Source: Planctomycetaceae bacterium (GTDB lineage: Bacteria > Planctomycetota > SZUA-567). Taken from it: DNA of 43,624 bases. A model generated the notes under the pieces. That model searched no databases. It was not told the origin of the DNA and saw nothing but the letters and a program-made list of their open reading frames with translations. Below are positions 12,243-32,450 of the stretch, in pieces. Numbering within the stretch: position 1 is the stretch's first letter; every line of letters starts with the position of its first letter. The DNA lies in contig JAJQFC010000213.1 in assembly GCA_021201355.1 (NCBI GenBank), positions 1 to 43,624 of the forward strand, read 5' to 3'. The position numbers were made by a program, and so were the translations under genes.

Positions 12243-13706
12243 ATGAACAACAACATCAATGAACCCGAATTAACCGGAGAAATATCCATCAGGGTCAAAA
12301 AACAGTCCATACGTGACGCATGGGCGGGCGCGCAGGTTGAAAACCGGATCAATATCCTCCATGGAGTATTCAGGAAGTACGACGCGGAAACTCAATACCC
12401 GTCGGCAGTGCATAATCTCCTCAAGGCGGCAAAAAGCAAGAAAACTTCCGGCCGCACAAATCTCATCCATAATGAGCTAACACCCTCACATTTTCGAAAA
12501 CGGGAATGGGTTGAAAAATGGCACGACGTTTTCGGAAGCGTCATGCAGAGGGACGAAAAGGTGGGCGGGGAAGTTTTGTATTTTTATTTCGGCATCGTTG
12601 CTCCGCAAGCTCTCGGCGCTTTTAAGCAACGTGTCACAGAAATGATTCAAAACAAGGGCGGAAACATTCAAGCTTTTAAGGGCCTGTCCGCCGGCCTCAA
12701 GTCAGTTCGCGAAATCGTCTCGCCCGATATTTACTCACTCTTTGCGGCCACCCTCTTCTTTAAAAACAATCAATGGCTATCCAAAATTAAACTAAGCAAG
12801 GTTTTCGGCACCGTTTTAAATGATTGGGAAAATTATATAGCTTTTGACAAGAAACAGGCTTCGCCAACCGTAGATGACGGGGTCGAGGGCGAGGAGGAAC
12901 AAGTCGACATTTCCAAGGGCGAATCAAGCGTCCAGGAAGATCTTGCGACAAACGAGGAAATCTCGGCCTGTTTTGACCGCCTCAGTGCCGCTCTCGCCGA
13001 TTCCGTAAACAAGCTATTACAAAACGGAGATGCAGAGGGTTCCGGCGCCAAGAAAATTGAACAAATCACCACCGACTTATGCCGTGAGGCCGAACGGCTG
13101 AACCGGGAGCTCACGGCTCTGGCGAAAAAATCAGGGCTGAAAAATTTGTCATGGTCCGGGTTAGATGCGTACAAAGAAGCCTGGTTACGGGCTCAGACCG
13201 CCGTCAGTGAGAAGTCCGGGCGGGCGCGGGAGGCGCGGGAAAAACTTATCAATGCTCTTGCCGAATGGCTTCCGAGGCAAAACCCTCAAACGGGTGTACA
13301 CGGGCGCATGCTTGAACAGCAACGCGAATTAATAAGCCGGGCGGCCGATACCCTGAAACGCGCAGCCACCCGCGATATCGACGCGGAGTTCCCCGGACAA
13401 CATAACGACTCCCCCGAAGAGTGGTGGCGGTGGCAATTGGCCGCGGATGGGGAACAGTTCGACCACATCATATTCGCTTTGCGCCAGCCGTGGGATCTGG
13501 ATGAGTTCAGTCAGGTAGTTGAAGGCAATCTTATTGCCTTTGACGACCGCACCGACGCGAAAACAGCGGATCTTCCCATACAGGCTCCTCAACCCCTCAC
13601 AGAAAAAATTTTAACTGAATCATCTTCTCCTGACGTAACGGATTCTGGTTCTGTCAATGATAAGGCAGACACCGTCACGATCGTGGAGAGTGAGGAATCA
13701 GGCTAG
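12243..13706 (+). CDS. Island protein A, N-terminal segment (ends at an in-frame TAG)
   Basis: First gene of the 17-kb island. The ATG at 12243 has GAGGG five bases upstream; in-frame codons further upstream lie inside the dyad. The 487 residues match no family I can name. Residues 1-200 look mixed helical and globular (for example EWVEKWHDVFGSVM and KVGGEVLYFYFGIVAPQAL), followed by an acidic linker, a long helical stretch rich in E, R and A, and a second acidic S/E/D/P-rich linker. The frame is interrupted in that last linker by TAG (13704-13706) but stays open in the same frame through another acidic stretch into the large ATPase ending at 18470. The downstream part has no ribosome-binding site, so both segments most likely are one protein of about 2075 residues. 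Confidence 0.7.
   Translation: MNNNINEPELTGEISIRVKKQSIRDAWAGAQVENRINILHGVFRKYDAETQYPSAVHNLLKAAKSKKTSGRTNLIHNELTPSHFRKREWVEKWHDVFGSVMQRDEKVGGEVLYFYFGIVAPQALGAFKQRVTEMIQNKGGNIQAFKGLSAGLKSVREIVSPDIYSLFAATLFFKNNQWLSKIKLSKVFGTVLNDWENYIAFDKKQASPTVDDGVEGEEEQVDISKGESSVQEDLATNEEISACFDRLSAALADSVNKLLQNGDAEGSGAKKIEQITTDLCREAERLNRELTALAKKSGLKNLSWSGLDAYKEAWLRAQTAVSEKSGRAREAREKLINALAEWLPRQNPQTGVHGRMLEQQRELISRAADTLKRAATRDIDAEFPGQHNDSPEEWWRWQLAADGEQFDHIIFALRQPWDLDEFSQVVEGNLIAFDDRTDAKTADLPIQAPQPLTEKILTESSSPDVTDSGSVNDKADTVTIVESEESG
13704..13706 (+). other. In-frame amber codon inside island protein A
   Basis: Codons before the TAG spell an acidic linker (IVESEESG) and codons after it spell more of the same (DVEDSPSSEVNADITSESV), with 60 sense codons up to the ATG at 13887. 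No frameshift is present. The TAG sits in low-complexity sequence where any inserted residue would be tolerated. Confidence 0.75.
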
Positions 13707-13886
13707 GATGTCGAAGATAGCCCTTCCTCGGAAGTCAATGCTGATATCACTTCCGAAAGTGTCAAGGTCGAACCCCCTCTTGAACCTTCAGATGAATCCT
13801 CTATCGAATCCACCAACGAGCCCATTGATCAGTCTTTTCCCGAACCTGTCAGCGAAACCCATTCCGAAAATCCGGCTGAATCGGTA

Positions 13887-16800
13887 ATGGATACACCCAC
13901 CGGGTCAGTTTCGGAAGGAATGATATCGGGCGAGGATGAAGCGACGTCTATCGACGGTCCCGCCGATGCGGAAGAAGCGTTACCCGAAAACGCCTCCGAC
14001 AATGAAGCTTCCGGTGCCGGTGATTTTGTCTGGAGAATGATGAAGAAGGATCGCCTGGATCTGGCGTATTACTGGGCCAAATTGGCTGAAGATTCAGGTG
14101 AACCGGCGGTATTCCCCTCGTCTTCCGCCATTCGCGCCATCGCGCTGGCCAACTATCTGGAGGAAAACGACGAAGAACTTCACAAGGAGTACGAGAAACA
14201 CCTTTCCCGTTCGCTCTCTGACTTCGACGTTACCAGTGGAGAAGGCGGTTTGGGCGAGGCGCGTCGCTTGATGGCGCTCGCCGCCAGTCTTATTCCCCTC
14301 ATCACCCGGAACAGCACCAATGCGGAAGCACTGGTGGCTTCTTCATTAAATATTTCCGGTTCTCCGGAGGTGAAACGCCTTATAAGGATAGTAAAGGAAT
14401 TCTCCGAATGTCGCTTCAGCATCGATCTTCTCCGCCGCGGCGCCAGCAACCAGGCCGAAAAGGATAGAATCGAGAACGAGTTCCACAACCAGGCGGTATC
14501 CTGGCTGAAGGAGGCGCGCAGCAAAAAGATTATCTTCGATGCGGGTAAAAAGGTCTGGCTCGTCTGGCTGAAATCGACCGGGGATATCGGCAGGCTCGTA
14601 GAAGGCATAATAGATAATCGTCGGTCCGAAATCGATGAATTACGCCAAATCGCTCAAAAGTGGTCGCAGGACAAGTATATTGACAAGCAAATTCAGGATA
14701 CCGATGCGCTCCTTCGTAAAACCGGTGCGAAACGGCGCGCCATCACGGCGCGGAGCCGAGTATCCTTGAAAAAACATGTCAAGGAAGCGCTTAAGCTTTT
14801 CTTCAAATGGGAACTCCTGTCCAATTTCAAAGTAAGAGAAAAGGATTTTATTAAAATTCCGGAGTACCATGTCGACCTGAAAAAGACACTTCCTCTGGCG
14901 AAAGAATGGCTGGCGGGCAAGTGCGAAGAAAGCATACAAAACCTGGCCCTGGAAGTCGGGTATCGTCTCTTGCGGCGTACTGTAGACCAGTTGGATACGA
15001 TAATCTTTCATCACGAGAATCGCGCCGGTTTTTCCTCGCTGCCAGCCGGTATCGACGCCAATCTTTTACGCATTCCATATATTCGACTCAAGAATGACGC
15101 CGGCTGCCGTCCGTGGCTGGCGGTTCAGCCCGAAAATTTCCGTGAGGCGCTCATAGCCGCCGGGAATGACGAAGACGACTGGCTGACAATCGCTAAAATG
15201 CATATGAGCTCGGGTAACTTCGGAAACGCAGGCCTCGCCCTGGAACTCGCCGAAAATGAGAATTTAGAGGAATACGACACGATACGGGCGAGTTTTAAGG
15301 AAAAGACGGTCGCTGCACGCAACAACCTCTACATCCGGATTAAAGCAGCCAGACTCAAGCTCAACCGCGCCTATTGCGAAGGCCTGCTCAAAGAAGAGGA
15401 GAGGGAACAGTTCGATTGGCCGGTGAAGCTCGCCGAGGTAAAGGACTTTCACCCAATTAACAAAAGTATCGCGGAGATGGAAAACCTCGTCGCCGAAAAA
15501 GAGCGCGAGTTTACGAACCAAATTCGCGAAAAGATCAATGCGATGCCGGACCTGTCCGATGATCGCCGTAATCGAATTCTCCAGTTTCTCGAAAAAGGCA
15601 GATATCTTGCAGCCGAAGGGATAGTGTCTGGCGAACGCTATATCGAGGCGTCGTATTCGACGGAAGAGTATGATTTCTACCCGGACTTCATCGATAGGAT
15701 AAATAGCTTTACCCCAACCTCAAAACCGCCTTTTGACAGTAAAACATTTAGAAAGGCGGCAAAACAGGGAAAGCTCGGCTGGCAGCTTCCGCCCGAAAAC
15801 ATTGAAGCAGCGCTCTATAATCTCGACCAGTTCGAGAATCTTTACCGCTCCGGCGCTAAATACAAAGAAAAGGACGCTTCATTAAAAGATCGGTCGGTAT
15901 ACCTTAAAACTATTCTCACCCGTATCGGATTCAAGAATGTAGACGTGCAACCGTTCGGCAAGGAGACCGACAGAAGGGGCGCCTGGTACACGATGACATG
16001 CGACACCGTAAACAACCGCGACGTTTGTCCGATACCGCATTTCGGTTCCGAAGCGGACGGTAAATACAGTATTTATTGCGTCTGGGATAAACCGTACGGC
16101 CACGAACTGAGAGACCGGGTAAAAAAATCCACCTGTCCGGGAAGAACCATTGTCATTTACCTTAATTGGATGGATAAGGATAAGCGTAACGACCTCGCTT
16201 ACCAAGGCGGTCGCTCGCTGCCGCCTGATAAGGCTTATATCGTACTTGACTGCTACTTGTACCTCTATATCTGTGGTCAACGGAACCCGCTCGCCGCCCT
16301 TTTTAACTGCGCCATCATGTTCAGTCCGGGCCAGCCCTACCAGAGCACCAACAACGCCGGCATTCCGCAAGAAATGTTCTACGGCAGGACGCAGCAACTT
16401 GATAAAATCTGCCACCGCGACGGTCATCTCGTTTACGGTGGGAGGCAATTAGGAAAAACGGCGCTGCTCCATGCCGCCCAACAGCGAATGCACCAGCCCA
16501 AAGAGGAGAGCTACGCTTTTTATCTTGATCTAAAAAATGATTCCCGCACGCACATCGGTACGGCAAACCAACCGTCTTATATTTGGACGGTCATGGGTAA
16601 AATTCTCTTCGAAAATGGCATTATCTCTTCCGGTATCGCCCGGCCCGATACATTCGCCAGATGTGTAATGGAATGGTTGGACAAGAATTCAAAAAGACGC
16701 ATCTTCTTCTTTCTCGACGAAGCGGACAATTTCCTCGAGGCTGATAGGCAAAGCGACTGGATTACGGTGGGCGAATTAAAGAACCTCATGGACAAAACCA

Positions 16801-18470
16801 CCAGCCGATTCAAAATCGTTCTCGCCGGTTTGCATAATGTACAGAGAACGGCAAAGGAAAGTAACACCCCCCTTGCCCATTTCGGCGATCCCATTTGCGT
16901 CGGCGCCTTCACGGACGAAGTTCAGGCGGCCCGGGACATGATTAACCTTCCGCTACGCGCGCTCGGTTTCCGGTTCGAGGATCCCGACCTCTATCTCGAG
17001 ATCCTGGCCCTAACCAATTACTACCCCAGTTTAATCCAGATTTTCTGCAGAAATCTGCTGGACAGTCTGCGCCGCGAACTAAGCCTCAAATCCTCGAACG
17101 TACCACCCTACACCATTACCCATGCCCATATTCAGGATGCCTACAACGAAAGCATCAAGCATATTCGGGAACGATTCTCCTGGTCACTCGACCTCGACCC
17201 CCGGTACAAGTTCCTGGCATACATGATAGCCGAAGAACTCCGTCTCAACCCGAACGGTTCCAACGCACTTACCGTCGGCGAAATTCGCACCGCCGCCCTG
17301 ACCATATGGGACGCCGGTTTCGGAACTCAGACGGGTGAACGGGATTTCAGCGTATTATTGGACGAAATGGAAGGATTGGGAATACTTCGGCGGGTGGACA
17401 ATGAAATGTACACCCTCCGAAACCGGAACGTCATGGCGCTACTGGGCAGCCCGGAAGGGTTCGAGGGCGGAATGCTCGCGGCTATGGACATTGAAGCCGA
17501 CACGCCGTACAGCCCTGACATATTCCGCAAGAAAATCTTGAAATGGAGTCGAAATCCGCTTACCGAGAGCCAGGAACTAAGTCTTCAGGACGTCGTTCAC
17601 GGCGTCATCGTCATCTTTGGTTGCAGTGCCGCCGAAGTCGACAAGATGCCGAAGGCATTGGAAAGCAGTCAATCGTATGAGATGCGAACACTCAACTGGA
17701 AAAACAACGCCACCATTCATCGGTTCCAGGAATGGGTAAAAGACACGACAGCCAGCCAGACTAAATGGACGTACCTCGTGGTGCCGGCCGCCGTCGCCTG
17801 GGACATGAAATGGGTCAAGCATGCCATGAACGAAAACCGAATAGGGCAGAGTTACCGTCAGCGTAAAGTGAAAATTATATTTGTCGGCAATTCGGTTCAG
17901 GCCTGGGACTGGTTTATAAACGGAAATTGCGTACAAGGCCCGAATTTGCGCCTGATGAGCCTCTTGCCGTGGCACGAGCAGACGTTGAAACAGTGGTTTG
18001 AATCCTTGGAGATTCCGTTCGACCGGCCAAAAATCCGTAAAACAATGGGACAGTGCGGCGGATGGGGAGGACTGTGCGACCGCTTTGGCGAGGACGTCAA
18101 CAGAAAGAATGATCGCTGGGACAAACATATGAATAACGACGAGGAATGGACCGGCGCGGATCTATTCAGAGATTATTTCGGACTCAATTTCGGTACGCCC
18201 GAACATGAAATTTTTCACTTGGCGACGGAAGCTTTCGAACTTTTCGACGACGAACTCGATGAACGCGGGTATTACCGCACGCCGGTTTCCTATTCGGAAA
18301 TGAAAGAATGGGTAAGTACCATGAAACCCAATCTCGTCGACTACCTGTCAAAATTATGGGAATGGGCCGCCGCCCTCAGTTACATCAAAAGAATCGACTC
18401 CGAGGAGGATGGCGATCACTGGGCGTTAAACCGTATTCTCACTCGTTTCGCCAAGGCGGGCGCACAATGA
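13887..18470 (+). CDS. Island protein A, main segment: large P-loop (AAA/STAND-like) ATPase
   Basis: A 1527-residue segment whose frame is open from 13707 directly after the TAG; the ATG at 13887 is only the first methionine and lacks a ribosome-binding site. An acidic start is followed by roughly 700 residues of helical repeat-like sequence, a domain of unknown type near 15900-16300, then an ATPase: MFYGRTQQLDKI, Walker A GGRQLGKTALL (lysine codon at 16455) and Walker B RIFFFLDEADNFL (Asp codon at 16716). This type of module occurs in ORC/STAND-like NTPases used as sensors in conflict systems. After it come a winged-helix-like region and a C-terminal module with alternating strands (VIVIFGCSAAEV, VKIIFVGNSVQAW). 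The stop overlaps the next start (ATGA). Confidence 0.8.
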   Translation: MDTPTGSVSEGMISGEDEATSIDGPADAEEALPENASDNEASGAGDFVWRMMKKDRLDLAYYWAKLAEDSGEPAVFPSSSAIRAIALANYLEENDEELHKEYEKHLSRSLSDFDVTSGEGGLGEARRLMALAASLIPLITRNSTNAEALVASSLNISGSPEVKRLIRIVKEFSECRFSIDLLRRGASNQAEKDRIENEFHNQAVSWLKEARSKKIIFDAGKKVWLVWLKSTGDIGRLVEGIIDNRRSEIDELRQIAQKWSQDKYIDKQIQDTDALLRKTGAKRRAITARSRVSLKKHVKEALKLFFKWELLSNFKVREKDFIKIPEYHVDLKKTLPLAKEWLAGKCEESIQNLALEVGYRLLRRTVDQLDTIIFHHENRAGFSSLPAGIDANLLRIPYIRLKNDAGCRPWLAVQPENFREALIAAGNDEDDWLTIAKMHMSSGNFGNAGLALELAENENLEEYDTIRASFKEKTVAARNNLYIRIKAARLKLNRAYCEGLLKEEEREQFDWPVKLAEVKDFHPINKSIAEMENLVAEKEREFTNQIREKINAMPDLSDDRRNRILQFLEKGRYLAAEGIVSGERYIEASYSTEEYDFYPDFIDRINSFTPTSKPPFDSKTFRKAAKQGKLGWQLPPENIEAALYNLDQFENLYRSGAKYKEKDASLKDRSVYLKTILTRIGFKNVDVQPFGKETDRRGAWYTMTCDTVNNRDVCPIPHFGSEADGKYSIYCVWDKPYGHELRDRVKKSTCPGRTIVIYLNWMDKDKRNDLAYQGGRSLPPDKAYIVLDCYLYLYICGQRNPLAALFNCAIMFSPGQPYQSTNNAGIPQEMFYGRTQQLDKICHRDGHLVYGGRQLGKTALLHAAQQRMHQPKEESYAFYLDLKNDSRTHIGTANQPSYIWTVMGKILFENGIISSGIARPDTFARCVMEWLDKNSKRRIFFFLDEADNFLEADRQSDWITVGELKNLMDKTTSRFKIVLAGLHNVQRTAKESNTPLAHFGDPICVGAFTDEVQAARDMINLPLRALGFRFEDPDLYLEILALTNYYPSLIQIFCRNLLDSLRRELSLKSSNVPPYTITHAHIQDAYNESIKHIRERFSWSLDLDPRYKFLAYMIAEELRLNPNGSNALTVGEIRTAALTIWDAGFGTQTGERDFSVLLDEMEGLGILRRVDNEMYTLRNRNVMALLGSPEGFEGGMLAAMDIEADTPYSPDIFRKKILKWSRNPLTESQELSLQDVVHGVIVIFGCSAAEVDKMPKALESSQSYEMRTLNWKNNATIHRFQEWVKDTTASQTKWTYLVVPAAVAWDMKWVKHAMNENRIGQSYRQRKVKIIFVGNSVQAWDWFINGNCVQGPNLRLMSLLPWHEQTLKQWFESLEIPFDRPKIRKTMGQCGGWGGLCDRFGEDVNRKNDRWDKHMNNDEEWTGADLFRDYFGLNFGTPEHEIFHLATEAFELFDDELDERGYYRTPVSYSEMKEWVSTMKPNLVDYLSKLWEWAAALSYIKRIDSEEDGDHWALNRILTRFAKAGAQ

Positions 18471-19591
18471 AGCCGCTCTGGTTCAGACTGCCCGGGCCAT
18501 CGCGGTTTCTCAACAACGTTTTCTCCGAACTCTCCGGGGGCATTAACGTTCTCCTCCTGGCTCCCAAGGAGGCAGCCGGACCGATCTGCGATGCCCTCAA
18601 CGAACTGGTCGTCGATCGCGGACATTTTGCGCCTTCCATTTTTATCGACGCTACAGTGGAACACCACGAAATCGACAAGCTGTTGCTTGACTGTCTCCCG
18701 GAACCATCGGACCAAGACCTCGATGCCCCCGACACGGTGGAACTTCTGTTCCGTCATTTGTCGGATCACCTGTTCTTGATCATGACCAGCGGCGAAGACG
18801 CAAACCGATGGATAGATTTTTTAGGCCAGCACTACCTATTACGGATACGCGGCAGGAAACCCGGTCAAAGCCCGATTTTCTTTATCGTCGCCACCACGAA
18901 CGATTGGCAAAGGACCAGTTCAGGAGGCGTCGCATACATGGGCCAGCCACCGCGGGAAATATCCGGTGACGTCGCCTTCCGCTGCCACACGTGGGATGGC
19001 GTCATCCACCGAAGCGACGTGGAGGCGTACGTCATCAGTCAACTCGTCGACAACACGGAAGAGGACGAGGAATGGTACAAGGAATTACAAGCGGCGATGG
19101 TCTCCTGCATCGCGGGCGATCATATTGAGTTAATAGAATATCTGACGACGCTCCGCTGGAGTCTCCTTGAGTTACCTGAAACGGCGTTGTATTCATCCAA
19201 AATCATGTTGCGGGACGGTTTGATAAATGATTCCGGCGACTATGATGAGGAAGTTTGGCAACGGCGTATATGGCGGGCGCAGGTTCGGGAGGTCTTTCCG
19301 ATTATCGAAGAAATGCGTATCCATATTATTCGAACCGCCATACAAAACGGTTGCCTGGCCGACCAGCTCTTCACCAAGGTCGGCACTCAAAAACAAGCCG
19401 TTGCCGATGCGATGGAGTTAGACTTCGGCGATCTTCCCAAAAACATGATGAAAGAGGCAAATCGCGAATTATTCCATAAGGCCAGCCTCCTCCGGAAAAT
19501 TCGCCACGATATAGCGCATTTAAAACCAGTCCGTATGGATAAGCTCGACCAGGATCTCTTCAGGAAAATGCTTAAGGAAATCAGGTCCTGA
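18467..19591 (+). CDS. Island protein B: degenerate ATPase with HEPN-like C-terminal motif
   Basis: A 374-residue protein translationally coupled to A (ATGA overlap). The N-terminal half follows the rhythm of a P-loop NTPase, but the phosphate loop is lost: INVLLLAPKEAAGPICDAL has no GKS/T. HLFLIMTSGEDANRW and SPIFFIVATTNDWQ sit where Walker B and sensor-1 strands would be. The C-terminus is helical and carries LLRKIRHDIAHLKPV: Arg346-His-x3-His351 fits the R-[N/H/D]-x(3-4)-H signature of HEPN domains, many of which are RNases of defence and toxin systems, though similar motifs also occur in non-catalytic STAND lids. The likely role is as partner of the large ATPase; RNase activity is an inference. 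Confidence 0.7.
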   Translation: MKPLWFRLPGPSRFLNNVFSELSGGINVLLLAPKEAAGPICDALNELVVDRGHFAPSIFIDATVEHHEIDKLLLDCLPEPSDQDLDAPDTVELLFRHLSDHLFLIMTSGEDANRWIDFLGQHYLLRIRGRKPGQSPIFFIVATTNDWQRTSSGGVAYMGQPPREISGDVAFRCHTWDGVIHRSDVEAYVISQLVDNTEEDEEWYKELQAAMVSCIAGDHIELIEYLTTLRWSLLELPETALYSSKIMLRDGLINDSGDYDEEVWQRRIWRAQVREVFPIIEEMRIHIIRTAIQNGCLADQLFTKVGTQKQAVADAMELDFGDLPKNMMKEANRELFHKASLLRKIRHDIAHLKPVRMDKLDQDLFRKMLKEIRS

Positions 19592-19618
19592 CAGAATTGA
19601 CCGAATGTGGGAGAAGGG

Positions 19619-21058
19619 ATGAAAATCGCTGTTCAGGCAAAAAGCGGGAAGCTTGCATCCGGTGACGACGTTCCCGGCGGCTCTCACCTGAAGGGTATAT
19701 ACCATTGTCCGAAATGCCTCCGGCCCGTCTACCACCGCGCCCGCCATTTCCAGCACTACCATTATAATAAGCATTGCCCGGACAGCATGAAAGGCGGGGA
19801 GGCGCGGCGCGACCCGCGAGGCATGTGGCAATCACTTCCCGTTGAAATAAACGCCTGGCTCCTGGATATAAAGGCGCGCCGGCGCGACGAAGGACTCACT
19901 CTGGAACAAGCGGTGACGGAATATCCGCCGCCCGGAGAATATTGGAGATTACCGTGGGACACGGGACCGTTTACCGAAATAGTTGAATCATTTGGCGAAC
20001 GTGACGACCGTATTCACGACACGACAGCGCTCGCTGTTCTCCACCGGCCGCAAGAAGACGAAACAACGGCGGTTCTCCTGGCAGTGAAAAATGGCGTGAT
20101 TGCGTTTGAACACGAACGTCTCCTCCTTCCGGTCGACCTGACACATCTTCCGGACATGCAGTTCAGCAACCGGGAAATTCAACGAAAGGCGTGGTTTCGC
20201 CGGCTGCTGAGAGAAGACTTCCTCATCGCCGTTCGGGATGACAGTTTCATCGAACCGGTATATGTCTGCTCCGACTTTGCATCGCCGGGCGATGAAATCC
20301 TGTTCCTGGCCAGCGACGAAGTAATGGCTGGAGAAACGGAAAGGCTGCGGATCTACGCCGATGGCGGAGAGGTCCGGATGGTGACTTCCGTCAATGCAGA
20401 ATCGCCGGGGAATCCTTGCATCGCGTCCGACTGGGAAGCGGTGCGATTGACCCTGGCGCATGACGCCCCGGTCATGCCGGCGTGGGTTATCCGTAAAACA
20501 TTGAGCGTGGAAGGCGGCTTAAGAATTGGCCGAGATGTCTACATGTCGGGAACGGATCTTCGCGTCACGCACCTGTCCGGCATGGCGGTCGAATGGTTCG
20601 GTTTTTACGAAAGTGAACGGTTCAGGCCAAAGACCGACGGCGCCAATGCGTGTTCACCCGATAATTTCATCCGGCCGGGGCGATACTATATTTGGGCCGA
20701 CGATGATCGCGGCGGCATCGGTTTTGAAGTACGGAAGCCCGCCGAAACACCGACGTTCTGTGAACGCTCTCCACGCGAATGGTTATGGGGACGCGGATGG
20801 CCACTCCCGGGCGAGGTGGACGATACGATCCCATGCAGCCGCATGTTTGGTGCCTGGTTCTCTTGTCCGGCGGCGGGCGCGATCACGAATATCAATCAGG
20901 CGGCCGGCCGGGAATCTCCGGTTTTTATGGCTCTAAAAGCGTTTACGAACAGCCTGTCAGCCGCTCCGGCCAACCGGTACGCCGGAACGGCGTTGCCCCG
21001 CCATATCGCGGCGGTTTTACTGGAACATGGACAAGGAAAACTGCATGAGAGACGGTGA
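19619..21058 (+). CDS. Island protein C: CoiA-like zinc-finger protein
   Basis: A 479-residue protein. The ATG at 19619 is preceded by GGGAG at five bases; an in-frame GTG at 19607 is possible. Residues 27-53 form a likely zinc site: IYHCPKCLRPVYHRARHFQH with Cys30, Cys33, several His and Cys53. The pattern CPxC...HFxH...C resembles the N-terminal zinc finger of the competence protein CoiA and relatives, where it precedes a nuclease domain. No clear PD-(D/E)xK core is visible here. The rest looks beta-rich with many short strands (for example YYIWADDDRGGIGFEV) and is not recognised. It overlaps the next gene by 14 bases. Confidence 0.7.
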   Translation: MKIAVQAKSGKLASGDDVPGGSHLKGIYHCPKCLRPVYHRARHFQHYHYNKHCPDSMKGGEARRDPRGMWQSLPVEINAWLLDIKARRRDEGLTLEQAVTEYPPPGEYWRLPWDTGPFTEIVESFGERDDRIHDTTALAVLHRPQEDETTAVLLAVKNGVIAFEHERLLLPVDLTHLPDMQFSNREIQRKAWFRRLLREDFLIAVRDDSFIEPVYVCSDFASPGDEILFLASDEVMAGETERLRIYADGGEVRMVTSVNAESPGNPCIASDWEAVRLTLAHDAPVMPAWVIRKTLSVEGGLRIGRDVYMSGTDLRVTHLSGMAVEWFGFYESERFRPKTDGANACSPDNFIRPGRYYIWADDDRGGIGFEVRKPAETPTFCERSPREWLWGRGWPLPGEVDDTIPCSRMFGAWFSCPAAGAITNINQAAGRESPVFMALKAFTNSLSAAPANRYAGTALPRHIAAVLLEHGQGKLHERR

Positions 21059-22997
21059 ATACTTAGGCAGGATAAGCTGGTGCAAACCCGATATGCCATG
21101 GTTGGCCCGGATCGAAGTCTATCAGAACAGGGATATTCCGGAGGAGGATCTCGACTTCCTCGGACCGACGAGACATGTATTCGTGAAGGATCTGCCGAAC
21201 GTTTTACAAAATCAAATCGGTCAGATCGTCTCTTTCCGCATTTTTAAAACGCCCTGGGACGTACCGGACGACAAGGATCCTTTCCATGCGGACGGGCGGA
21301 CTATCAAGGCGGCGGGTTTCTTGCGAGTCGCCGCATGCGAAGAGGACGAATGGAATCAAATTCCTCCCGTTTTTCAGTCCGATAACGTACCTCCGAACAG
21401 CGCGAAGGAACTCATACTCGATACCACATTCGGTCAACGGAAGGGATGGGTCGGGCCATGGAAAGCGGAAAAAGGGAGATGGGTGCCCAAATATGATTTC
21501 AGCCTGTGGTTTTGGGACGCGGAGGATCACGCCCTCACGGCTGAGCCGCTCGGAACGCCGGTGGAATGGTTTGTCCGTCCTCCGAGCACTCACTCAGCGC
21601 AAAAATTGGACGCGAGCGACGGGCCCCGTCTAGCGACGTGGTTCGAAAAACTGATTACAGGCGCCTTCCCCATGATGATGCGGGAATTACAGGAAAAATA
21701 TCCATCATGGCAGGTGGATTTGGCAAACTCCCTGACTGAACGGAATGAATCCGAAGAAGATTTGCAGCGATGGGGCAAGCTCGCCGGCATTTTCAATTCC
21801 CTGAAATTCACCGACAACGAGGTCGATTATCTCCTCTCCCGCCCGGAAGGCGTCGCCGCCCTATTGAAGGCGGTTGAACGGCGGGCGGAATTCGTCGAAG
21901 CGGAAGCGGTACGCATGGCCGAGGAAGAACTGATACGCCTCGAAACAGCCACGAAAAAGAAAGGCGAGGAACTGGCGGATTTGGAGTCCCGTTTCCGGTC
22001 ATTGGATGACGAGTACCAGAATAAGCTCGACCAATTGGCGGTCGTTGAGAACCACTTCCTGGAAAACTGGGATCGTCTCGTCAAGGATGTGGCAGTCATC
22101 GCCAGCGTCTTGCCGGAAGGAAAGCGCGACGAGGACCTTGTTCGACAGCCCGCCGTTTCACCGTTGCCGCCGGTTCGCCTGACGAATGACGCGGAAACGG
22201 ACGATGAGGAAACTTTTATAAACGTTTCCCTGGCCAACACGCTGAAACGTCTCGCCCCCGGTGCGACCACCGACGGCGGACGAAAATTCCATGCCGCGCT
22301 GCTTGCCTGCCGCGGTCTCAGGGTTCCGCATTCAGGCTGGACGCGTGCCTACGGCGAAGCTGTCGGCGCCGCCTCCGTAACCACCATCGTCTCCGCCCGT
22401 CCGGTGTGGGCCTCTTTCGACGACTGCTGGCACGACGGCCTCGACACGTTCTGGCGGCAGGCTTTGACAGATACGGAAAGACTCTATCTCGTCCATCTCC
22501 AAAACGTCGACCTCAGTCTGATCGAGAGTTGGGCCATACCCCTCGTCAATATCCTTCTGGGCCACGCCGCCGTCCTCCCAGTCGACAACTTCCCACCGTG
22601 GCCGGAGAACGTTCGCCTTACCTGGTGCGCCGCTCCCGGCGAGGACCGGTTCCCCCTTCCGGAAAAATTTTCCGCCGCTTTCCCGGCCATTCCTCAACCG
22701 GACGTGGATAGCTGGCTGGCTCCGGACGCATCGATGATCTGCCCAGGTATCAGTTTTGCTTCGTTCGCGGCTTGGGCGCGAATCCGGAATTCCAGTACTG
22801 GTGAACGGGTGGTGCCTGACAGCGCCGTGCGGCGCTGGCCCGATCTCGCCCCAACAATGAACCGGGACATTCTCGCCATCAGGAGCCACCTGCTCCGTCT
22901 GTACGAAGACTACGGACAGGACAATGCCCTGGCGACCGCGATGGACCTTCGCCTCGGACACATGGCTGACGGGAAGGAGCCGACATCACTGTCATGA
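21045..22997 (+). CDS. Island protein D: coiled coil plus apparently inactive McrB-like AAA+ domain
   Basis: A 650-residue protein; the start at 21045 uses AAGGA upstream and overlaps gene C. Residues 1-190 form an unrecognised beta-rich domain. Residues about 275-350 form a coiled coil (EEELIRLETATKKKGEELAD and onward). The C-terminal 250 residues parallel the dynein/McrB type of AAA+ domain: a loop-strand where the P-loop should be (LLACRGLRVPHSGWTRAYGE, no GKS/T), then VSARPVWASFDD like the V-x-P-x-W-x-(S/T)-x-x-D block, then YLVHLQNVDLSLIESW where the DE(M/I)N Walker B should be, and PENVRLTWCAAPGEDRFPLP like the sensor-1 strand and following loop. Catalytic residues are missing, so it may act as a structural or ligand-binding relative. 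This homology is read from pattern only. Confidence 0.65.
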   Translation: MRDGEYLGRISWCKPDMPWLARIEVYQNRDIPEEDLDFLGPTRHVFVKDLPNVLQNQIGQIVSFRIFKTPWDVPDDKDPFHADGRTIKAAGFLRVAACEEDEWNQIPPVFQSDNVPPNSAKELILDTTFGQRKGWVGPWKAEKGRWVPKYDFSLWFWDAEDHALTAEPLGTPVEWFVRPPSTHSAQKLDASDGPRLATWFEKLITGAFPMMMRELQEKYPSWQVDLANSLTERNESEEDLQRWGKLAGIFNSLKFTDNEVDYLLSRPEGVAALLKAVERRAEFVEAEAVRMAEEELIRLETATKKKGEELADLESRFRSLDDEYQNKLDQLAVVENHFLENWDRLVKDVAVIASVLPEGKRDEDLVRQPAVSPLPPVRLTNDAETDDEETFINVSLANTLKRLAPGATTDGGRKFHAALLACRGLRVPHSGWTRAYGEAVGAASVTTIVSARPVWASFDDCWHDGLDTFWRQALTDTERLYLVHLQNVDLSLIESWAIPLVNILLGHAAVLPVDNFPPWPENVRLTWCAAPGEDRFPLPEKFSAAFPAIPQPDVDSWLAPDASMICPGISFASFAAWARIRNSSTGERVVPDSAVRRWPDLAPTMNRDILAIRSHLLRLYEDYGQDNALATAMDLRLGHMADGKEPTSLS

Positions 22998-23923
22998 TTG
23001 ACGGCGATACAATCCTTTATTGGCTCAGTTCCCGAAAGACGGCGACTTTCGGGAAGGCTGTCGTTGATAATTCTCTTTCCGGCCTGACCGTTCATGGCGG
23101 AGGCGGAATTTATACCAGTCTCTGGCCCCTCCTTCTTCAAGGTCATGTTGAAATTACGAAACCGGACTATTTCGCCATGGTCCCGCCCATTCTTCTATGG
23201 CGAAATGAGAAATGCGGCGCAATGCTATGCGGCGCCCGAACTCCCGCACTCGTCGACGCTTTTATTAAAAAGGGCGGCGAACCCCGTTCCGTATCGGACT
23301 CGATGACGAACTTCGCGACACCGCTAGTTCTACGCCGCAGTGGCGGTGAATGCCGGGAAGCGGCGCGCAGCCTCGGCATCGGCTTTACCGACAGCCCATT
23401 GTTACCGCTTTTGGCCGGGCTCCCCGATTTTGGCGAAACTTTGGCGGTCAGTACCACTTCTGCCGAACGCATCCATCCGGATGTTCTTCGGAATTGTCGA
23501 CGCTTCTCCGCGAAAGGCGCAACGCTGCGTTGGTCGATGAGTCCCGATCTGACAGGCAGGCGCGGTCTGTATAGAAGTAATGACGCGTCGTACAAGGGAA
23601 ATACGTATTACGCCATTCTTGATGATTTCGGCCCCGGCCTGGTTTTAGATTATTTTCTGCGGGATATCGCCGTTTGTTATTTCGGGAGTGCGGAGGGCGT
23701 TCCATTGTCCCTTTCGTACGACGGCGATGCCCTGACAATTACCCACCCCTATCACGAAGAAATATATCCACGCCTCCCGCTCCTCCTTGAAAGGATACTT
23801 TTCCTTGCAGCCGCGTCGGTGGAAAAAAACGGTTTGACAACATGTTTTCGCGGTATTCCGCAACCAATTGCCAGCGAGACCGCTCGCATTGTCGGCGTTT
23901 CTTCAGCCGGCCTTTCCCTTTAA
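22994..23923 (+). CDS. Island protein E: unknown
   Basis: A 309-residue protein coupled to D by an ATGA overlap. I do not recognise it. It starts IDGDTILYWLSSRKTATFGK, contains a glycine-rich turn (TVHGGGGIY), several short hydrophobic strands (YFAMVPPILLW, VLDYFLRDIAVCYF) and no membrane helix, nuclease or ATPase motif that I can see. Because it is tightly packed between D and the helicase, it is probably a component of the same machine. Confidence 0.7.
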   Translation: MIDGDTILYWLSSRKTATFGKAVVDNSLSGLTVHGGGGIYTSLWPLLLQGHVEITKPDYFAMVPPILLWRNEKCGAMLCGARTPALVDAFIKKGGEPRSVSDSMTNFATPLVLRRSGGECREAARSLGIGFTDSPLLPLLAGLPDFGETLAVSTTSAERIHPDVLRNCRRFSAKGATLRWSMSPDLTGRRGLYRSNDASYKGNTYYAILDDFGPGLVLDYFLRDIAVCYFGSAEGVPLSLSYDGDALTITHPYHEEIYPRLPLLLERILFLAAASVEKNGLTTCFRGIPQPIASETARIVGVSSAGLSL

Positions 23924-24099
23924 CAACGGTGCGCTTTTTCCGACGTTTCTCACGACCCTTTTTCATGACCGGACTCGTCACGTTTTCCCTCGTCAAATCC
24001 GGCAATCGGCGTCTTTTCCCCGTCTCCGTTTGCCGATACCAGATATGAAACAACTGCATCTCGACCGTTACGCTGGCACTGGACCGATGGAGATCAACC

Positions 24100-27000
24100 A
24101 TGAATCCTGTGGAAAAAACGACATACCTTAAAAAGCTTTATCAGATGTATATGGATTCGGCGATTCCGTTCCGACTCGATTGCCTGACGAGCGAACGTCG
24201 GGACATCTTCGAAGATTCCGGCGCCCTTTGCCAGCCGCCAATGTTCGAACCGCTGACGCGTTATCCCGCCGGACCGACGGTACGGGACATCGCCGTGGAA
24301 CTGGATTTGGCAACGGACTTTCCGGATTTTGTCGAGACGGGTTTTTTCCGGTCCAGTAACGACGAGCCACGCCGGCTGTACGAACACCAGGCCGAAGCCT
24401 TGCGCCAATACCGGGCGGGCAGACACATCGTTATCGCGACGGGTACCGGTTCCGGCAAAACCGAAGCTTTCCTCCTCCCGATACTCAGTACCCTTCTTCG
24501 CGAATCGGCATGCTGGCCGGATACTGGAAAAGAACCGGCGATCCGGGCACTCCTTCTTTATCCTCTCAACGCCCTGGTCGAAGACCAAATGATCCGGTTG
24601 CGCCGGGGCCTGAACGGAGACAGCCTGGGCAAAGACCCAAAGACACCGCGGAGCTGGCTCCGGGATCACCGAGCCGACAAACGAATAACGTTCGGTCGCT
24701 ACACCAGCCAGACTCCCGTTCCCGGCAGTTTTGAAAAGCGTCGGGAGAAATGGAATGAGGCAAGAATTGCGCTGGAGGATCAATGGCGCCGAATTCTTGA
24801 ATCCGCCGCAAAGAACGAACTGAAGGATGAAGACGTACAGTACCATTTTCCTTGTATGGATACCGACTCCGCCGAATGCTGGGATCGTTTCAGCATGCAG
24901 AGGAACGCACCGGATCTTCTTATCACAAACTTTTCCATGTTGAACGTCATGTTAATGCGAAGACGCGAAGACGGGATGTTCGATCAGACCAGGCACTGGC
25001 TGGAAGGAGACCCGTGGCGTTCCGGCAACGATGTTGCACCGACCCGGTATTTCCATCTTGTCGTCGACGAATTGCATTCCTATCGCGGTACTGCCGGCGG
25101 GGAAGTGTCTTTACTCCTCCGGCTTCTCCTTGATCGCCTGGGACTGTCGCCCAATTCGCCGCAACTCAGGTTCCTCGCTTCGAGCGCGTCGCTCACCGAT
25201 GACGCGGCGACAAGAAGCTTCATTACGAGTTTTCTCGGGACCGATTCGTCGGAAAAAGACGACTTTCTCCACCGCTTCTCCCTAATTCAGGACCCGCCCC
25301 GGCAAAAAGGAATCAAGTCTCCCGATCTTCGTGGCAAGATGGAAATGTTTGAAGAAATCGCGGCGACATCGTCCCTGTCGACGGTAAACCGTTCCTCTTC
25401 TTCCAGTGAAGAAGCCGACGGCATGACCGCCCTCAAGGACGAACTCCCTCTCATGCGTGAAATCGCCGAGGATTTTAACAGTCTTTCGGGAGTTTACACC
25501 GTCGCGGATCTTGCCGGCCGCTGGTTTGGCGATTCCGAAAATGCGGCCGCCGCCGCCGGTGTCCTGACCGCTTTAAACTCCTTAAGGGACTCCGGCCGCA
25601 CCGGGGCGCCGATGCGGATGCACGTATTCTTCCGTACCGTGCCAGGCTTATGGGCCTGCTCGAATCCCGATTGCGGAATACTGCCGGAAAACTACCGTCA
25701 CGCCGATCGTCTTTTCGGAAAATTGTACAGGCGCCCAGTCCTGACCTGCGGATGCGGCGCGCGTGTCCTGGACCTCCTGCTCTGCCGTCATTGCGGAGAA
25801 GTGTTTCTTGGAGGAAGCAAATGGCGGGCTGAGGACAACACTCTTTTCCTGACCCATGGACAACCTGATTTGGAGCGAATTCCAGGCAGCGGCTGGCGCC
25901 AAAGGCGCTATGGAGAATACGCGGTCTTTTGGCCCGAAACCGAGAAGCCAAAGCTAATAGAATGGAGACCTGCAAGTGAGGGTTTGCATCACCAGTGGAT
26001 TCGAAGCGCATACAATTGCTTCACCGGTAAAATTGAAAGTCTGGCGAGACAAACGAACTGCTGGCTGTATAAAATAGACCCGCAGGGAGGTGCGGCAGGT
26101 CATCTTGCACCACCGGATTGGGAAATCAGCTATACCGGATTGCCGACGCGCTGCCCCAAATGCGACGCGGACGGACACCGACGGAACAGGGAGCCATTTC
26201 CACCCGTCCAGGAGCATGTCACCACCGTCAACCGGGTGAACCAACTGTTAGCCGACGGCCTTATTCGAAGTACCGAGCCGACCGGCGATGGAGAGACGCT
26301 CCGGAAGCTTGTCATCTTTTCCGACAGCCGGCAGAATGCGGCCAAACTTGCCTCTGGAATCGAACTGGAACATTACCGCGATCTTGTTCGCCAATGTCTT
26401 GTCCAGCATTTCACCGCTGCGACGGACCTGCGCCGGATAATGGTCAAGTATCTCCGTTCAGGCCGGAACGGGCTTTCCGACCGGGAGTTCTCGATGTGGC
26501 GGGACGACCCGGGGATTACGTCCGAATACAAGGACGCAATTAAGACCTGGCGGGATTACCGGGACGAATTGAACGAAAAGCAGCGGCGCATCATCGCATC
26601 ACTGGAAAATGAACACTCTCGCACGGTCTTCAGCGTCACGCAGGCGGCCAACGCGACGCGAAAAAAACTACTCGATCTCGGTGTCAATCCCGCCGGACCG
26701 AGGCCAAGCCTTCAAGGTGACCAGCGTAGCGGGCGCTGGACACGTTTGCTAACTTCCCGGGGTAACGATCTGGAATTTCTTGACGAAGAGTATCTTGAAG
26801 ACAGTCAGCGCTTTCTCTACAAATCCATCAAGGAAATGAGCGAACGTGAATGCATATACACCTTGTTTGCCCACCGAAGAAAGAGCGCCGAAGCCCTTCT
26901 ATTGGGGCGGGTGACCTATAATCCGGATATCGCGGCTCCCGACCTCTCCCGTTATGGCCTGAACGCGGACCAGTCGTCAGCCGCCATCGAAATACTGATT

Positions 27001-28992
27001 CGAATAATGGGTGAATTACGCAGGCTGGAAGGGGAACGGTATTCCAGGTACTACCAGGCACTGCCAACGCCGTTTATGAATTTCGTCGCCGAAGTCACCG
27101 GAATAAACAATAACTTGCAGAAAGCGTTCTCCCTGGAGTTGGTTGAATTTCTCGCGAGACATGGATTGACAACGGCGCCGGAGCGGGTCACGCTGCGGTT
27201 TGGCAACCTCTATTTCATTCCCGCCGAGACCGGCGCACCGTATTGGCAGTGCAATCGGTGCAATACAATTCTTCTTCGTAACGCCTTCCAGCGTTGCTGG
27301 AACTGTCTTGAACCGTTGGACGCCGCCACTCAAAGAATCGTCCGGACGGATAACGCTGAACCGGATTACTATGCCTATCTTTCATCCGACCGGACTGAAA
27401 GTTACCGACTGCATTGCGAAGAGATGACCGGTCAAACCGACTATGGCGAAGCCCGCCGCCGGCAGCGGCTTTTTCAGGACATCACCCTGGCGAAGAATGG
27501 CGAAAATATCCATTTCGACGGCATCGATCTGCTGAGCGTGACGACAACCATGGAGGCCGGCGTCGACATCGGCGGATTGGAATCGGTAATGATGGCCAAC
27601 TTTCCGCCACAGCGGTTCAATTATCAACAACGCGTTGGCCGGGCGGGCCGAAGGAATTCCAGCCTGGCAACGGCGCTCACCGTGTCCCGCGGTTCCAACC
27701 ACGACGAAGCCCACTACACCAACCCGAGACGGATGCTCTCCACCACACCTTCGGCGCCATATATCGATGTCGAGCGCCTGGAAATGCAGAAGCGGTTCCT
27801 CATGAAAGAGGTTTTACGACGGACATTTTGGGAGAGCAAGGTCGGCGGAGAAAATGTCCACGGCTCTTTCGGCACAGTTGGGGATTGGGCAAGCAATGCG
27901 CCGCTCCTCCTCCGCTGGCTGGACAGGAACAAATCGGAACTGTCGGGCATTATCGATACCCTGGTCCGCGGCACGACAGTGGCGTCGCGAAAGCAGGAAT
28001 TAGCAGAATGGGCCGCCGTCGGTATGCCGGAAGCCATCAATATGGCTGTTCGCGATCAACCGGGATTCCCCGGCGCTCCGTTGAGCCAGGCGCTGGCGGA
28101 CTGCGGCCAGTTGCCGATGTTCGGCTTGCCGACCCGCATGCGGCAACTCCACCACCACCGCCCGAACCGTTTGCCTGGAGACGGCATCGCCCGGGATCTG
28201 GACATCGCCATCAGCCAGTTCGCGCCGAAAAGCCAGACCATCAAGGATAAATCCAAGCTCACGGCGGTCGGTGTCGTTACCTTTCAGGAACAGTGGAACA
28301 GGGTCAGGGAGGAGGATGGACGGGGCGTCCCGCACAGATTCTGCCAGTGTCCGGCATGCACCACGTTGTTTCACGAACCGCTCCCGGAAGGTTTTTGTCC
28401 GGTGTGCCAGGCCCCGCTGGACGAAAACGCCGCGTTTACCGCCTGGGAACCGCTCGGATTTACCGTCGAGTATAACTTTGAAACAGGCGAGGGTGAACGA
28501 GAGGACGACGACGGCTATTTCGAGTGGACTCCCCGGTCGACCCCCGCCCGGCTTTGCATGCCGTCCCGGCCCATGCGAAAGGTGTCTGGCCGGAATATCG
28601 CGTCCGCGTCGCTCCCGGGAACGGTGTATTCGGTGAACGATAACGACGGGAAACTTTTTCGCATGGAACAGCTGCGCTCCCACCGGGCGTTATGGGTTCA
28701 TCGCGACGCGTTGAACGACGGCGGCGATCCTTCCCGTCCGCAGAGGGGCTTTTGGCTGAACGATCTGGACGGGAATAGTGCCGTCGACGTGGCACTGTGT
28801 TCAGCCAGAACCACGGACGTCCTTCTTCTTCGCCATTCAGACGTTCCCGCCTTCCTCCATTCCAATCCGGATGCTCCGGCCGGACGGGTCTACTGTAAGG
28901 CCGCCTATTATTCCTGGGGCTACATGGCCCGCCGGGCCGCGGCCAATTACCTCGACGTTTCGGTGGACGAATTGAATATGAACACCACCTAG
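24100..28992 (+). CDS. Island protein F: SF2 helicase with zinc-binding clusters and DUF1998 (ends at in-frame TAG)
   Basis: A very large superfamily-2 helicase (1630 codons to the TAG). GGAG lies seven bases before the ATG. Helicase motifs are complete: I, ATGTGSGKTEAFLLP (Lys120); II, LVVDELHSYRG (Asp323); III-like, FLASSASLTDD; V, TTTMEAGVDIGGLESV; VI, QQRVGRAGRR (about 1176-1185). Cys pairs suggest several zinc sites: ACSNPDCG, CGCGARVLDLLLCRHCGE, CPKCDADG, CNRCNTI with CWNCLE, and CQCPACTT with CPVCQA. The C-terminal DUF1998 domain begins before the TAG and continues after it. This architecture is that of DruE of Druantia and of DrmA/DrmB-like proteins of DISARM. A 176-base gap separates it from gene E. 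It probably moves along or remodels invading DNA. Confidence 0.85.
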   Translation: MNPVEKTTYLKKLYQMYMDSAIPFRLDCLTSERRDIFEDSGALCQPPMFEPLTRYPAGPTVRDIAVELDLATDFPDFVETGFFRSSNDEPRRLYEHQAEALRQYRAGRHIVIATGTGSGKTEAFLLPILSTLLRESACWPDTGKEPAIRALLLYPLNALVEDQMIRLRRGLNGDSLGKDPKTPRSWLRDHRADKRITFGRYTSQTPVPGSFEKRREKWNEARIALEDQWRRILESAAKNELKDEDVQYHFPCMDTDSAECWDRFSMQRNAPDLLITNFSMLNVMLMRRREDGMFDQTRHWLEGDPWRSGNDVAPTRYFHLVVDELHSYRGTAGGEVSLLLRLLLDRLGLSPNSPQLRFLASSASLTDDAATRSFITSFLGTDSSEKDDFLHRFSLIQDPPRQKGIKSPDLRGKMEMFEEIAATSSLSTVNRSSSSSEEADGMTALKDELPLMREIAEDFNSLSGVYTVADLAGRWFGDSENAAAAAGVLTALNSLRDSGRTGAPMRMHVFFRTVPGLWACSNPDCGILPENYRHADRLFGKLYRRPVLTCGCGARVLDLLLCRHCGEVFLGGSKWRAEDNTLFLTHGQPDLERIPGSGWRQRRYGEYAVFWPETEKPKLIEWRPASEGLHHQWIRSAYNCFTGKIESLARQTNCWLYKIDPQGGAAGHLAPPDWEISYTGLPTRCPKCDADGHRRNREPFPPVQEHVTTVNRVNQLLADGLIRSTEPTGDGETLRKLVIFSDSRQNAAKLASGIELEHYRDLVRQCLVQHFTAATDLRRIMVKYLRSGRNGLSDREFSMWRDDPGITSEYKDAIKTWRDYRDELNEKQRRIIASLENEHSRTVFSVTQAANATRKKLLDLGVNPAGPRPSLQGDQRSGRWTRLLTSRGNDLEFLDEEYLEDSQRFLYKSIKEMSERECIYTLFAHRRKSAEALLLGRVTYNPDIAAPDLSRYGLNADQSSAAIEILIRIMGELRRLEGERYSRYYQALPTPFMNFVAEVTGINNNLQKAFSLELVEFLARHGLTTAPERVTLRFGNLYFIPAETGAPYWQCNRCNTILLRNAFQRCWNCLEPLDAATQRIVRTDNAEPDYYAYLSSDRTESYRLHCEEMTGQTDYGEARRRQRLFQDITLAKNGENIHFDGIDLLSVTTTMEAGVDIGGLESVMMANFPPQRFNYQQRVGRAGRRNSSLATALTVSRGSNHDEAHYTNPRRMLSTTPSAPYIDVERLEMQKRFLMKEVLRRTFWESKVGGENVHGSFGTVGDWASNAPLLLRWLDRNKSELSGIIDTLVRGTTVASRKQELAEWAAVGMPEAINMAVRDQPGFPGAPLSQALADCGQLPMFGLPTRMRQLHHHRPNRLPGDGIARDLDIAISQFAPKSQTIKDKSKLTAVGVVTFQEQWNRVREEDGRGVPHRFCQCPACTTLFHEPLPEGFCPVCQAPLDENAAFTAWEPLGFTVEYNFETGEGEREDDDGYFEWTPRSTPARLCMPSRPMRKVSGRNIASASLPGTVYSVNDNDGKLFRMEQLRSHRALWVHRDALNDGGDPSRPQRGFWLNDLDGNSAVDVALCSARTTDVLLLRHSDVPAFLHSNPDAPAGRVYCKAAYYSWGYMARRAAANYLDVSVDELNMNTT
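28990..28992 (+). other. In-frame amber codon inside the DUF1998 domain of the helicase
   Basis: The TAG interrupts DUF1998 between YLDVSVDELNMNTT and FSDGTSTGMEVFLADNLANG. In this family the region before the VFLAD strand is continuous with the GAGYC motif, which here lies beyond the TAG in the same frame, with no indel. Without readthrough the helicase would lose the conserved core of its C-terminal domain. Confidence 0.8.
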
Positions 28993-29577
28993 TTCTCCGA
29001 CGGAACGTCTACGGGGATGGAGGTGTTCCTTGCCGATAATCTCGCCAATGGAGCCGGATATTGCCGGCACCTCGCCGAAAACATCGAGCCGGCAATCCTC
29101 ATGCCGCTCCTGCCCGGCGGTGAGTTTTACAACGCCATGATTTCGCAGTCACATGCTTCCGACTGCAACGGCGTTTGTTACGACTACCTTGCAGACTACA
29201 GCAACTCGGAGTTCCACGGGATACTTGATTGGCGGCTGGCCCTGGACCTGGCGGCCCTGGCGGCGGACGAGCGCCATCCCGTCGATTTGACCGCCGAGTA
29301 TTGGTCCGGTATACCCGAAAAAGCGGCGCGGATTTTTGTAAACGCGGTCGACGGGCTGGAAGCACAGACGATTGATTCGCTAACCTGCTTGTTTCGCGGT
29401 AAAGAATTGTTTTGCGTATTTACTCATCCCCTCTGGAGAACCGATCATCCCAGCCTGATCAACCTCGCGACAACGCTCACTCTCACTTCGGAAGCGTTAG
29501 GATTGCGGCAGTGCAACCTTTTTGACGCCCTTCGCCGGCCGGGATGGTGTTTAACCCGGTTGGATTTTGAGGGATAA
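28993..29577 (+). CDS. Helicase F, C-terminal DUF1998 segment after the TAG
   Basis: The frame continues directly from the helicase and encodes 194 more residues, giving 1825 codons in total. It carries the DUF1998 core: VFLADNLANGAGYCRHL, then SDCNGVCYDYLADYSNSEFH with the paired cysteines and H typical of the domain, then LDWRLALDLAALA. Its first methionine (29017) lies inside the domain and has no ribosome-binding site, so independent translation is unlikely. It is part of protein F if the TAG is read, or an untranslated remnant if it is not. It ends in TAA, 29 bases before a hairpin. Confidence 0.75.
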   Translation, partial: FSDGTSTGMEVFLADNLANGAGYCRHLAENIEPAILMPLLPGGEFYNAMISQSHASDCNGVCYDYLADYSNSEFHGILDWRLALDLAALAADERHPVDLTAEYWSGIPEKAARIFVNAVDGLEAQTIDSLTCLFRGKELFCVFTHPLWRTDHPSLINLATTLTLTSEALGLRQCNLFDALRRPGWCLTRLDFEG

Positions 29578-32431: not shown

Positions 32432-32450
32432 GTGGGCCACGTCGAGAAGC

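Follow-up and report, generated by a model that had tools for sequence, protein, structure and literature searches.

The window analyzed in this study is a stretch of 43,624 nucleotides from a Planctomycetaceae bacterium (assembly GCA_021201355.1, contig JAJQFC010000213.1, here contig C55), whose genome assembly comprises 3.85 Mb in 372 contigs and is 83% complete. Between positions 12243 and 29577 six genes, named A to F, are located on the forward strand. This island probably consists of two abutting modules directed against mobile elements, namely an independent ATPase-HEPN pair (A and B) and a divergent Druantia core (C to F). The following features were assigned:

12243..18470, + strand: gene A, frame of about 2075 codons for a predicted STAND/ORC-type ATPase, interrupted by TAG at 13704
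13704..13706, + strand: TAG stop in A at codon 488, within a linker of low conservation
16437..16460, + strand: Walker A motif GGRQLGKT of A, pattern kept in 40 of 40 aligned sequences
18467..19591, + strand: gene B, 374 amino acids, predicted AAA+/STAND fold without P-loop (residues ~1-258) and C-terminal HEPN-like helices
19502..19519, + strand: HEPN motif R-x4-H of B (R346-H351), invariant (54 of 54)
19607..21058, + strand: gene C, 483 amino acids, N-terminal zinc finger (by eye), weakly DruF-type over ~96 columns
21045..22997, + strand: gene D, coiled-coil protein of ~650 amino acids, DruG-like
22994..23923, + strand: gene E, 309 amino acids, predicted DruL homologue
24100..29577, + strand: gene F, assigned as DruE (YprA-family superfamily 2 helicase), interrupted by TAG at 28990
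24442..24462, + strand: Walker A motif GTGSGKT of F
28990..28992, + strand: TAG stop in F, codon 1631, preceding the conserved C-terminal cysteine cluster
29578..29700, no strand: right boundary of the island; the related genome G341 is collinear from 29701 onward

The first-pass annotation of this DNA described six co-directional genes with short overlaps, and this arrangement was confirmed: A and B as well as D and E overlap by 4 nt, C and D by 14 nt, whereas 15 nt separate B from C and 176 nt separate E from F. The other two frames of each gene contain 9-102 stops per gene, therefore A to F are real coding frames. However, the open frames of about 2075 residues and 1825 codons that had been assumed for A and F are each interrupted by a single in-frame TAG, while B to E are intact. 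Relatives of A, B, D, and E were detected by BLAST in a second genome of the same genus (G277).

Gene A comprises an N-terminal helical or linker region, an alpha/beta domain recognized by eye, an ATPase domain with a winged helix and a C-terminal domain. The Walker A and Walker B patterns were found in all 40 aligned A sequences. A segment of the protein was modeled with a predicted local distance difference test (pLDDT) score of 83.7 and a predicted template modeling score (pTM) of 0.66; its residues 187-559 match 2qen of the archaeal ORC/STAND ATPases (Z 18.9, root-mean-square deviation (rmsd) 4.4, 320 aligned residues), and NLR and apoptosome ATPases follow with Z 14-16. The motifs and the fold match bear out the ATPase proposed earlier, and A is predicted to be a STAND/ORC-type ATPase with intact ATPase motifs.

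Gene B was modeled with a pLDDT of 86.7, and helices are predicted in its C-terminal part. Its residues 1-258 resemble Cdc6/Orc1 (Z 11.0, rmsd 5.1, 229 aligned residues) and Apaf-1 (Z 10.2). A P-loop was found in none of 54 B family members, all of which end with RX4H, the residue after the arginine being asparagine (48), aspartate (3), histidine (2) or arginine (1), so that the P-loop-less partner with a HEPN-like motif suggested before is supported. The pattern R-x4-6H with a polar residue behind the arginine corresponds to the motif described for HEPN RNases in the available part of PMC3710099. Pfam HEPN_Swt1 is weakly matched by 21 of the 54 members at E-values up to 1 (best 3e-4), and DUF4145 by five. 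Among the 50 matches listed per fold search for B, which mainly cover the AAA part, no HEPN chain occurs. The best match of the B profile to PDB sequences, an AhpD chain at an E-value of 0.019, was taken as chance. B thus seems to combine an AAA+/STAND fold without P-loop with a putative HEPN domain, membership in HEPN being assigned by the motif.

Relatives of A were sought in GTDB genomes with an alignment of seven sequences. At least 545 were obtained among 594 pattern stretches listed, counted as stretches and not as species. The best 80 of them span about 17 phylum-level groups, including Planctomycetota, Acidobacteriota, Cyanobacteriota, Verrucomicrobiota, Pseudomonadota, and Myxococcota as well as Gemmatimonadota, Bacillota, Deinococcota, Actinomycetota, and Bacteroidota. 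In 73 of these 80 loci at least 600 bases are available behind A, and a B gene was found there in 55, with a gap of -108 to +20 nt in 53 of the 55. The other 18 loci comprise 11 from cyanobacteria, three with B located elsewhere (L048, L071, L082) and four without B. Full-length A was present in 2 of the 392 genomes of the phylum, the own genome included, and A relatives occurred in 27 of 72,556 plasmid records. In viral contigs one relative of the A family was found. In three of six plasmid loci, from Thiodictyon, Salinibacter, and Streptomyces, a B-like gene lies directly behind A and no DruE is annotated; in Salinibacter, a CRISPR system of type I-E lies some 10 kb away from the pair. A-B is an independent, widespread pair, which usually occurs without Druantia.

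The pair is apparently unnamed. PADLOC-DB 2.0 contained no model matching A and B of the window at 0.05, nor A and B of G277 at an E-value of 10. In the accessible parts of the main texts searched, including PMC12839542, PMC7159879, PMC13092281, PMC10853773, and PMC3710099, no two-gene pair of a STAND protein and a P-loop-less AAA-HEPN protein was found; supplements and subscription papers lay outside this scope, and the pair may be published there. Among the 112 neighboring ORFs scanned around A-B loci (25 of 50 families listed; many ORFs are raw longest-frame calls), matches were obtained to QatD (two), a type II methyltransferase, ZacA, BrxA, DzbA, DarG, LmuA, and reverse transcriptases (DRT).

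Several A relatives deviate from the common arrangement. Cyanobacterial relatives of about 2400 residues occur without B (L043, L044, L051, L053, L054, L097, and others), and one of the cyanobacterial proteins (P0013, L033:12682-19551) has a sigma-70-like start, as judged by eye. A neighbor family of about 1000-1100 residues, annotated as helicase in Brasilonema, was observed in 13 A loci, most of them cyanobacterial. On an Azospirillum plasmid (L036:7945-17715) the A relative is fused within a protein of 3256 residues annotated as RNaseH domain-containing, whose gene is preceded by those of a WYL regulator and an ATP-binding protein. On a Methylocystis plasmid (L037) it lies in a large defense-type island, with PLD, PD-(D/E)XK, and UvrD genes on one side and, on the other, a DruE-like helicase together with a STY4851-family protein.

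Gene F is identified by its sequence as DruE. In the comparison with PADLOC models it scored highest with DruE4 (1240 bits), followed by DruE2 (1176 and 1153 bits), DruE1 (541 bits), and DruE3 (349 bits), and the piece behind the TAG codon also matches DruE models. The superfamily 2 helicase named in the first-pass annotation was thereby recovered with Pfam and PADLOC; its DUF1998 region gave no Pfam match, but could be placed by alignment with other DruE proteins. Identity with DISARM or Dpd was rejected, as F reached low scores with DrmA (38 bits) and DpdJ (54 bits) and no partner of either system matched in the island. DruA and DruH had no PADLOC match in the island, so markers of Druantia types I and III were not found, and the DruM methyltransferase was detected neither among A to F with Pfam, NCBIfam, and PADLOC nor in 20 flank ORFs with Pfam. 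The absence of DruA, DruH, methyltransferases, and SNF2 partners stated before holds within these searches. In Pfam, NCBIfam, and PADLOC, the proteins A to E had no noteworthy matches, except for an ATPase match of A below threshold and two weak ones of D.

The genes preceding F were compared with other loci that carry DruE, which was found in 6 of the 392 phylum genomes at 1e-30 (own included) and in 162 of the 72,556 plasmid records. Fifteen plasmid loci were examined and five of these scanned with PADLOC, which named the proteins before DruE as DruF and DruL. A profile of E, built from the proteins of the window, G277, G205, and G161, matched all six DruL-position proteins in a set of 39 proteins (1.7e-19 to 3e-9); three of the six are named DruL by PADLOC and three by position. 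In the reverse direction, the DruL profile matched E of the window at 2.8e-9, and the proteins of G277 and G205 were not matched. The profile-profile comparison (hhalign) of E and DruL gave 97.95% over 265 columns with an E-value of 3e-13, and the PADLOC DruL models did not match E of the window. By sequence, E can be regarded as a DruL homologue.

For D and C a homology to Druantia genes is suggested less firmly. The D profile matched a Burkholderia DruG-position protein at 1e-8 and a Rhizobium DruG at 0.001, which may partly be due to the coiled coil. D and DruG were aligned at 74.5% (E-value 2.7e-5, 98 columns), and PADLOC reported no DruG match for D of the window. The planctomycete genome G205 bridges the families: its genes are arranged in the order DruF-like (PADLOC 3.6e-15), D-like (27% identity), E-like and DruE, and its E-like protein matches the C-terminus of the long DruF2 model at 1.3e-8. 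D was aligned with its D-like counterpart in G205 at 99.4%, and the latter with DruG at 76%. C was aligned with the DruF-like pair of G205 and G161 at 71% over 96 columns, and this pair with DruF at 98%. In total, 28 such pairings were run, seven of which stand out, whereas the other 21 remained at or below 1.5%. The latter include pairings that would be expected under a type I reading, and they argue against a close relationship to type I.

The zinc finger noted earlier in C was seen by eye; the match to PADLOC DruB1 through the finger (2.2e-10, 51 residues) concerns the C gene of G277 and not that of the window. A tblastn search of plasmids with C and D of G277 gave no match, and F was not found in viral contigs. 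The DruC1 model yielded nothing in the 392 phylum genomes; as the control genomes gave nothing either, this result is uninformative. Taken together, genes C to F are best read as a divergent Druantia core, which mixes features of types II and IV and lacks DruA, DruM, and DruH. The row of G205 itself (L024:2261-7199 and the joined L023/L024), made up of DruF-like, DruG-like, DruL-like and DruE genes, appears as a mixture of types II and IV and has an integrase-looking ORF (by eye) upstream.

The six island genes have a third-position G+C of 0.54-0.66, compared with 0.69-0.87 in 13 flank genes, in line with a foreign origin of the island. The closest species compared, G341, shows 96% identity in the flank gene PALP and matches the window from 39314 down to 29701 in three blocks with 84-92% nucleotide identity. 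This collinearity breaks 124 bases behind the stop of F, and window positions 1-29700 had no match in the 20 kb examined of the 28-kb G341 contig. Beyond the break, eight ORFs were tested: four of them encode functions in metabolism or transport, and the other four are without a Pfam match. The aminotransferase just upstream of the island had no match at 1e-60 in six other genomes of the genus. In G277, PALP and the island are located on different contigs, so the two copies of the island may sit at different places. The flank shared with G341 contains TPR-containing genes, a PEGA-domain protein and a protein of 1060 residues (30240-39739). Further downstream, a bacterial class A RNase P RNA was identified on the reverse strand (40283-40671, 259 bits), and this part of the flank also holds a ribosome recycling factor and an amino acid kinase.

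In its present form the copy in the window is probably impaired, since the frames of A and F contain nonsense codons. A single stop in 5-6 kb is considered to be a lesion in a real gene, because the other frames contain many more. A sense reading of TAG was rejected: this codon terminates 3 of the 13 flank genes looked at, and PylS was not found (three candidates scored, none at 0.001), which in a genome of 83% completeness is not absolute. The TAG codons in A and F are therefore read as nonsense. An rpoB domain contains no internal stop. Behind the TAG of F, a zinc cysteine of the conserved C-terminal cluster is replaced by tyrosine, while it is kept in all 11 other aligned DruE proteins. The relative of A in G277 has an open frame over 2056 amino acids; the frames for A, B, D, and E are all open there, with 26-38% identity to the proteins of the window, and a C-like gene is also present.

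The copy in the window is thus probably decaying, and in this genome the island is more likely than not a relic without function. This concerns the present copy and is compatible with the other readings, which concern the family. It is indicated by the interruption of both large genes by a codon that serves as stop in the flanks, and by the replaced cysteine. However, the frames of B to E are undamaged and those of A and F are interrupted only once each, single-base assembly errors are possible with 372 contigs, and a start at 13887 could still yield the ATPase part of A.

For the family, the reading as two abutting modules, A-B and a Druantia core, has a computed basis in the homology that E and F and, with less certainty, D and C share with Druantia genes, in the conservation and adjacency of A and B, in the motifs of A, and in the missing P-loop and the RX4H motif of B. 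A would sense an infection cue and oligomerize, and would then activate B via its degenerate AAA+ domain. The HEPN RNase of B, once unleashed, might cleave RNA and stop the cell or the phage as a last-resort response. C to F may form a helicase-centered complex acting on invading DNA, as proposed for Druantia. The sensing, oligomerization, activation of B by A, RNA cleavage and anti-phage outcome, and hence a defense activity of the island, are what we infer.

Several results weigh against this reading. Its support is computational throughout, and the neighbor scan was performed without a control set on 112 of 234 ORFs. A, B, C, and E of the window had no PADLOC match at an E-value of 0.05 and D two weak ones of coiled-coil type (PDC-S62, LmuB). 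B of the window itself has no Pfam match, and its HEPN part was barely reached by the fold search, in which the matches listed mainly comprise residues 1-276. The relation of D to DruG extends over about 100 columns. C is the weak link: its direct comparison with the type IV DruF set gave 31%, and no DruF match was reported by PADLOC. It is also not connected by BLAST at 0.01 to C of G277; phmmer gave 0.005-0.03 in the set of 39 proteins, and otherwise the two are joined by position, size and the zinc finger seen by eye. Finally, C, D, and E remained below 2% against type I proteins of Nitrosococcus (a fused DruB/C-position protein and a DruD-position protein) and type II DruF, the latter giving 0.2% with C.

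A single system of six genes, with A-B as the sensing unit of a new Druantia type at the position held by DruA or DruM in types I and II, is rather doubtful. It would fit the contiguous, co-directional genes of the window with their short gaps. In addition, A-B adjoins C-like, D, and E genes in G277, where PALP and the island are on separate contigs, and in L100 and L113 the A gene follows a DruE-like gene on the same strand by about 100 and 65 nt. However, A-B and the C-like, D, and E genes are divergent in G277, the latter running off the contig where F would be. The profiles of C, D, and E, searched in flanks of 10 kb or less, matched one of the best 80 A loci, the G277 contig, whose proteins had contributed to these profiles, and none of the other 79, so that the conserved order of A to F expected in unrelated genomes was not found. 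Moreover, A or B was found in none of 20 other DruE-bearing loci (15 from plasmids, five from planctomycetes).

The F profile matched 10 of the best 80 A loci; in six of these the gene comprises 1800 codons or more. In the loci tested, PADLOC assigned the gene beside A to DruE3 (L100, L116), DruE1 (L107), DruH3 (L112), and, in L108, a divergent DruE. No match at 1e-10 was obtained for the gene that precedes DruE in L100. A-B thus recurs beside Druantia of more than one type. A cooperation of A-B and C-F is favored by their adjacency in two arrangements and by the location beside other Druantia types, whereas two modules are favored by the independent distribution. It is improbable that A-B is a non-defense pair of ATPase and RNase for general stress, cell cycle or element stability, which came to lie near defense genes through hitch-hiking or by chance. 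A toxin-antitoxin logic would likewise agree with AAA+ plus HEPN, A relatives are present in 27 of 72,556 plasmid records and the neighbor scan was uncontrolled, but the spread is patchy within the phylum yet covers many phyla, and the neighbors are of defense type.

The undescribed-looking defense island of the first-pass annotation therefore keeps its defense type but not its standing as a wholly new six-gene system. A match to a named system, which had been stated to speak against novelty, was found in part, since F and E and less surely D and C are Druantia homologues, whereas A-B is a pair of its own, found in the absence of C-F in dozens of loci. Of the two parts of the island, the pair is the more interesting. 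Tentatively, A-B might be a widespread antiviral system that has no name so far, with an NLR-like STAND ATPase relaying an infection signal to a pseudo-ATPase with a HEPN RNase, coupled here with a Druantia core of new type (zinc-finger DruF/B-like, DruG-like, DruL, DruE; no DruA or DruM) to a two-tier island of DNA and then RNA defense. This would be a simple relay of two proteins, from ATPase to HEPN, directly testable in laboratory strains. The copies of the pair scanned match no PADLOC model.

Among the known systems, Druantia type IV consists of DruE, DruF, and DruL, according to the part of Payne et al. (2021; PMC8565338) available. The island resembles it in DruE4 being the best model for F and in E, the DruL homologue, lying directly before DruE, but differs in the DruG-like D, the short and weakly DruF-like C and the preceding A-B. 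Druantia types I and II are described as type IV CoCoNuTs with inactive, McrB-like CnuB in the sections available of Bell et al. (2025; PMC12458937), where they are also named as diversity still to be studied. They share with the island the succession of a zinc-finger protein, a coiled-coil protein, a small protein and DruE. Unlike them, the island has no DruA or DruM, F scores lower with DruE1, and no profile link to the Nitrosococcus type I proteins was found. The locus supplies a core that combines DruG-like and DruL components and has neither DruA nor DruM. For type III, the excerpt of PMC13192584 describes DruE as a helicase-nuclease effector.

A-B resembles DUF499/Hma and other ATPase-HEPN systems, in which, in the portions available of PMC12839542 and PMC3710099, an AAA+ ATPase is coupled with a Swt1-like HEPN RNase. 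As far as those portions extend, A-B differs in that the putative HEPN domain belongs to a second protein, which has an additional AAA+ domain that lacks the P-loop, and in that a methyltransferase or helicase is not part of the pair. For A, Foldseek also lists Avs3. Avs and other bacterial STAND/NLR-like sensors consist of a STAND-type ATPase, a winged helix and large extra domains. The same composition is predicted for A, whereas the effector of A-B would be a separate HEPN protein.

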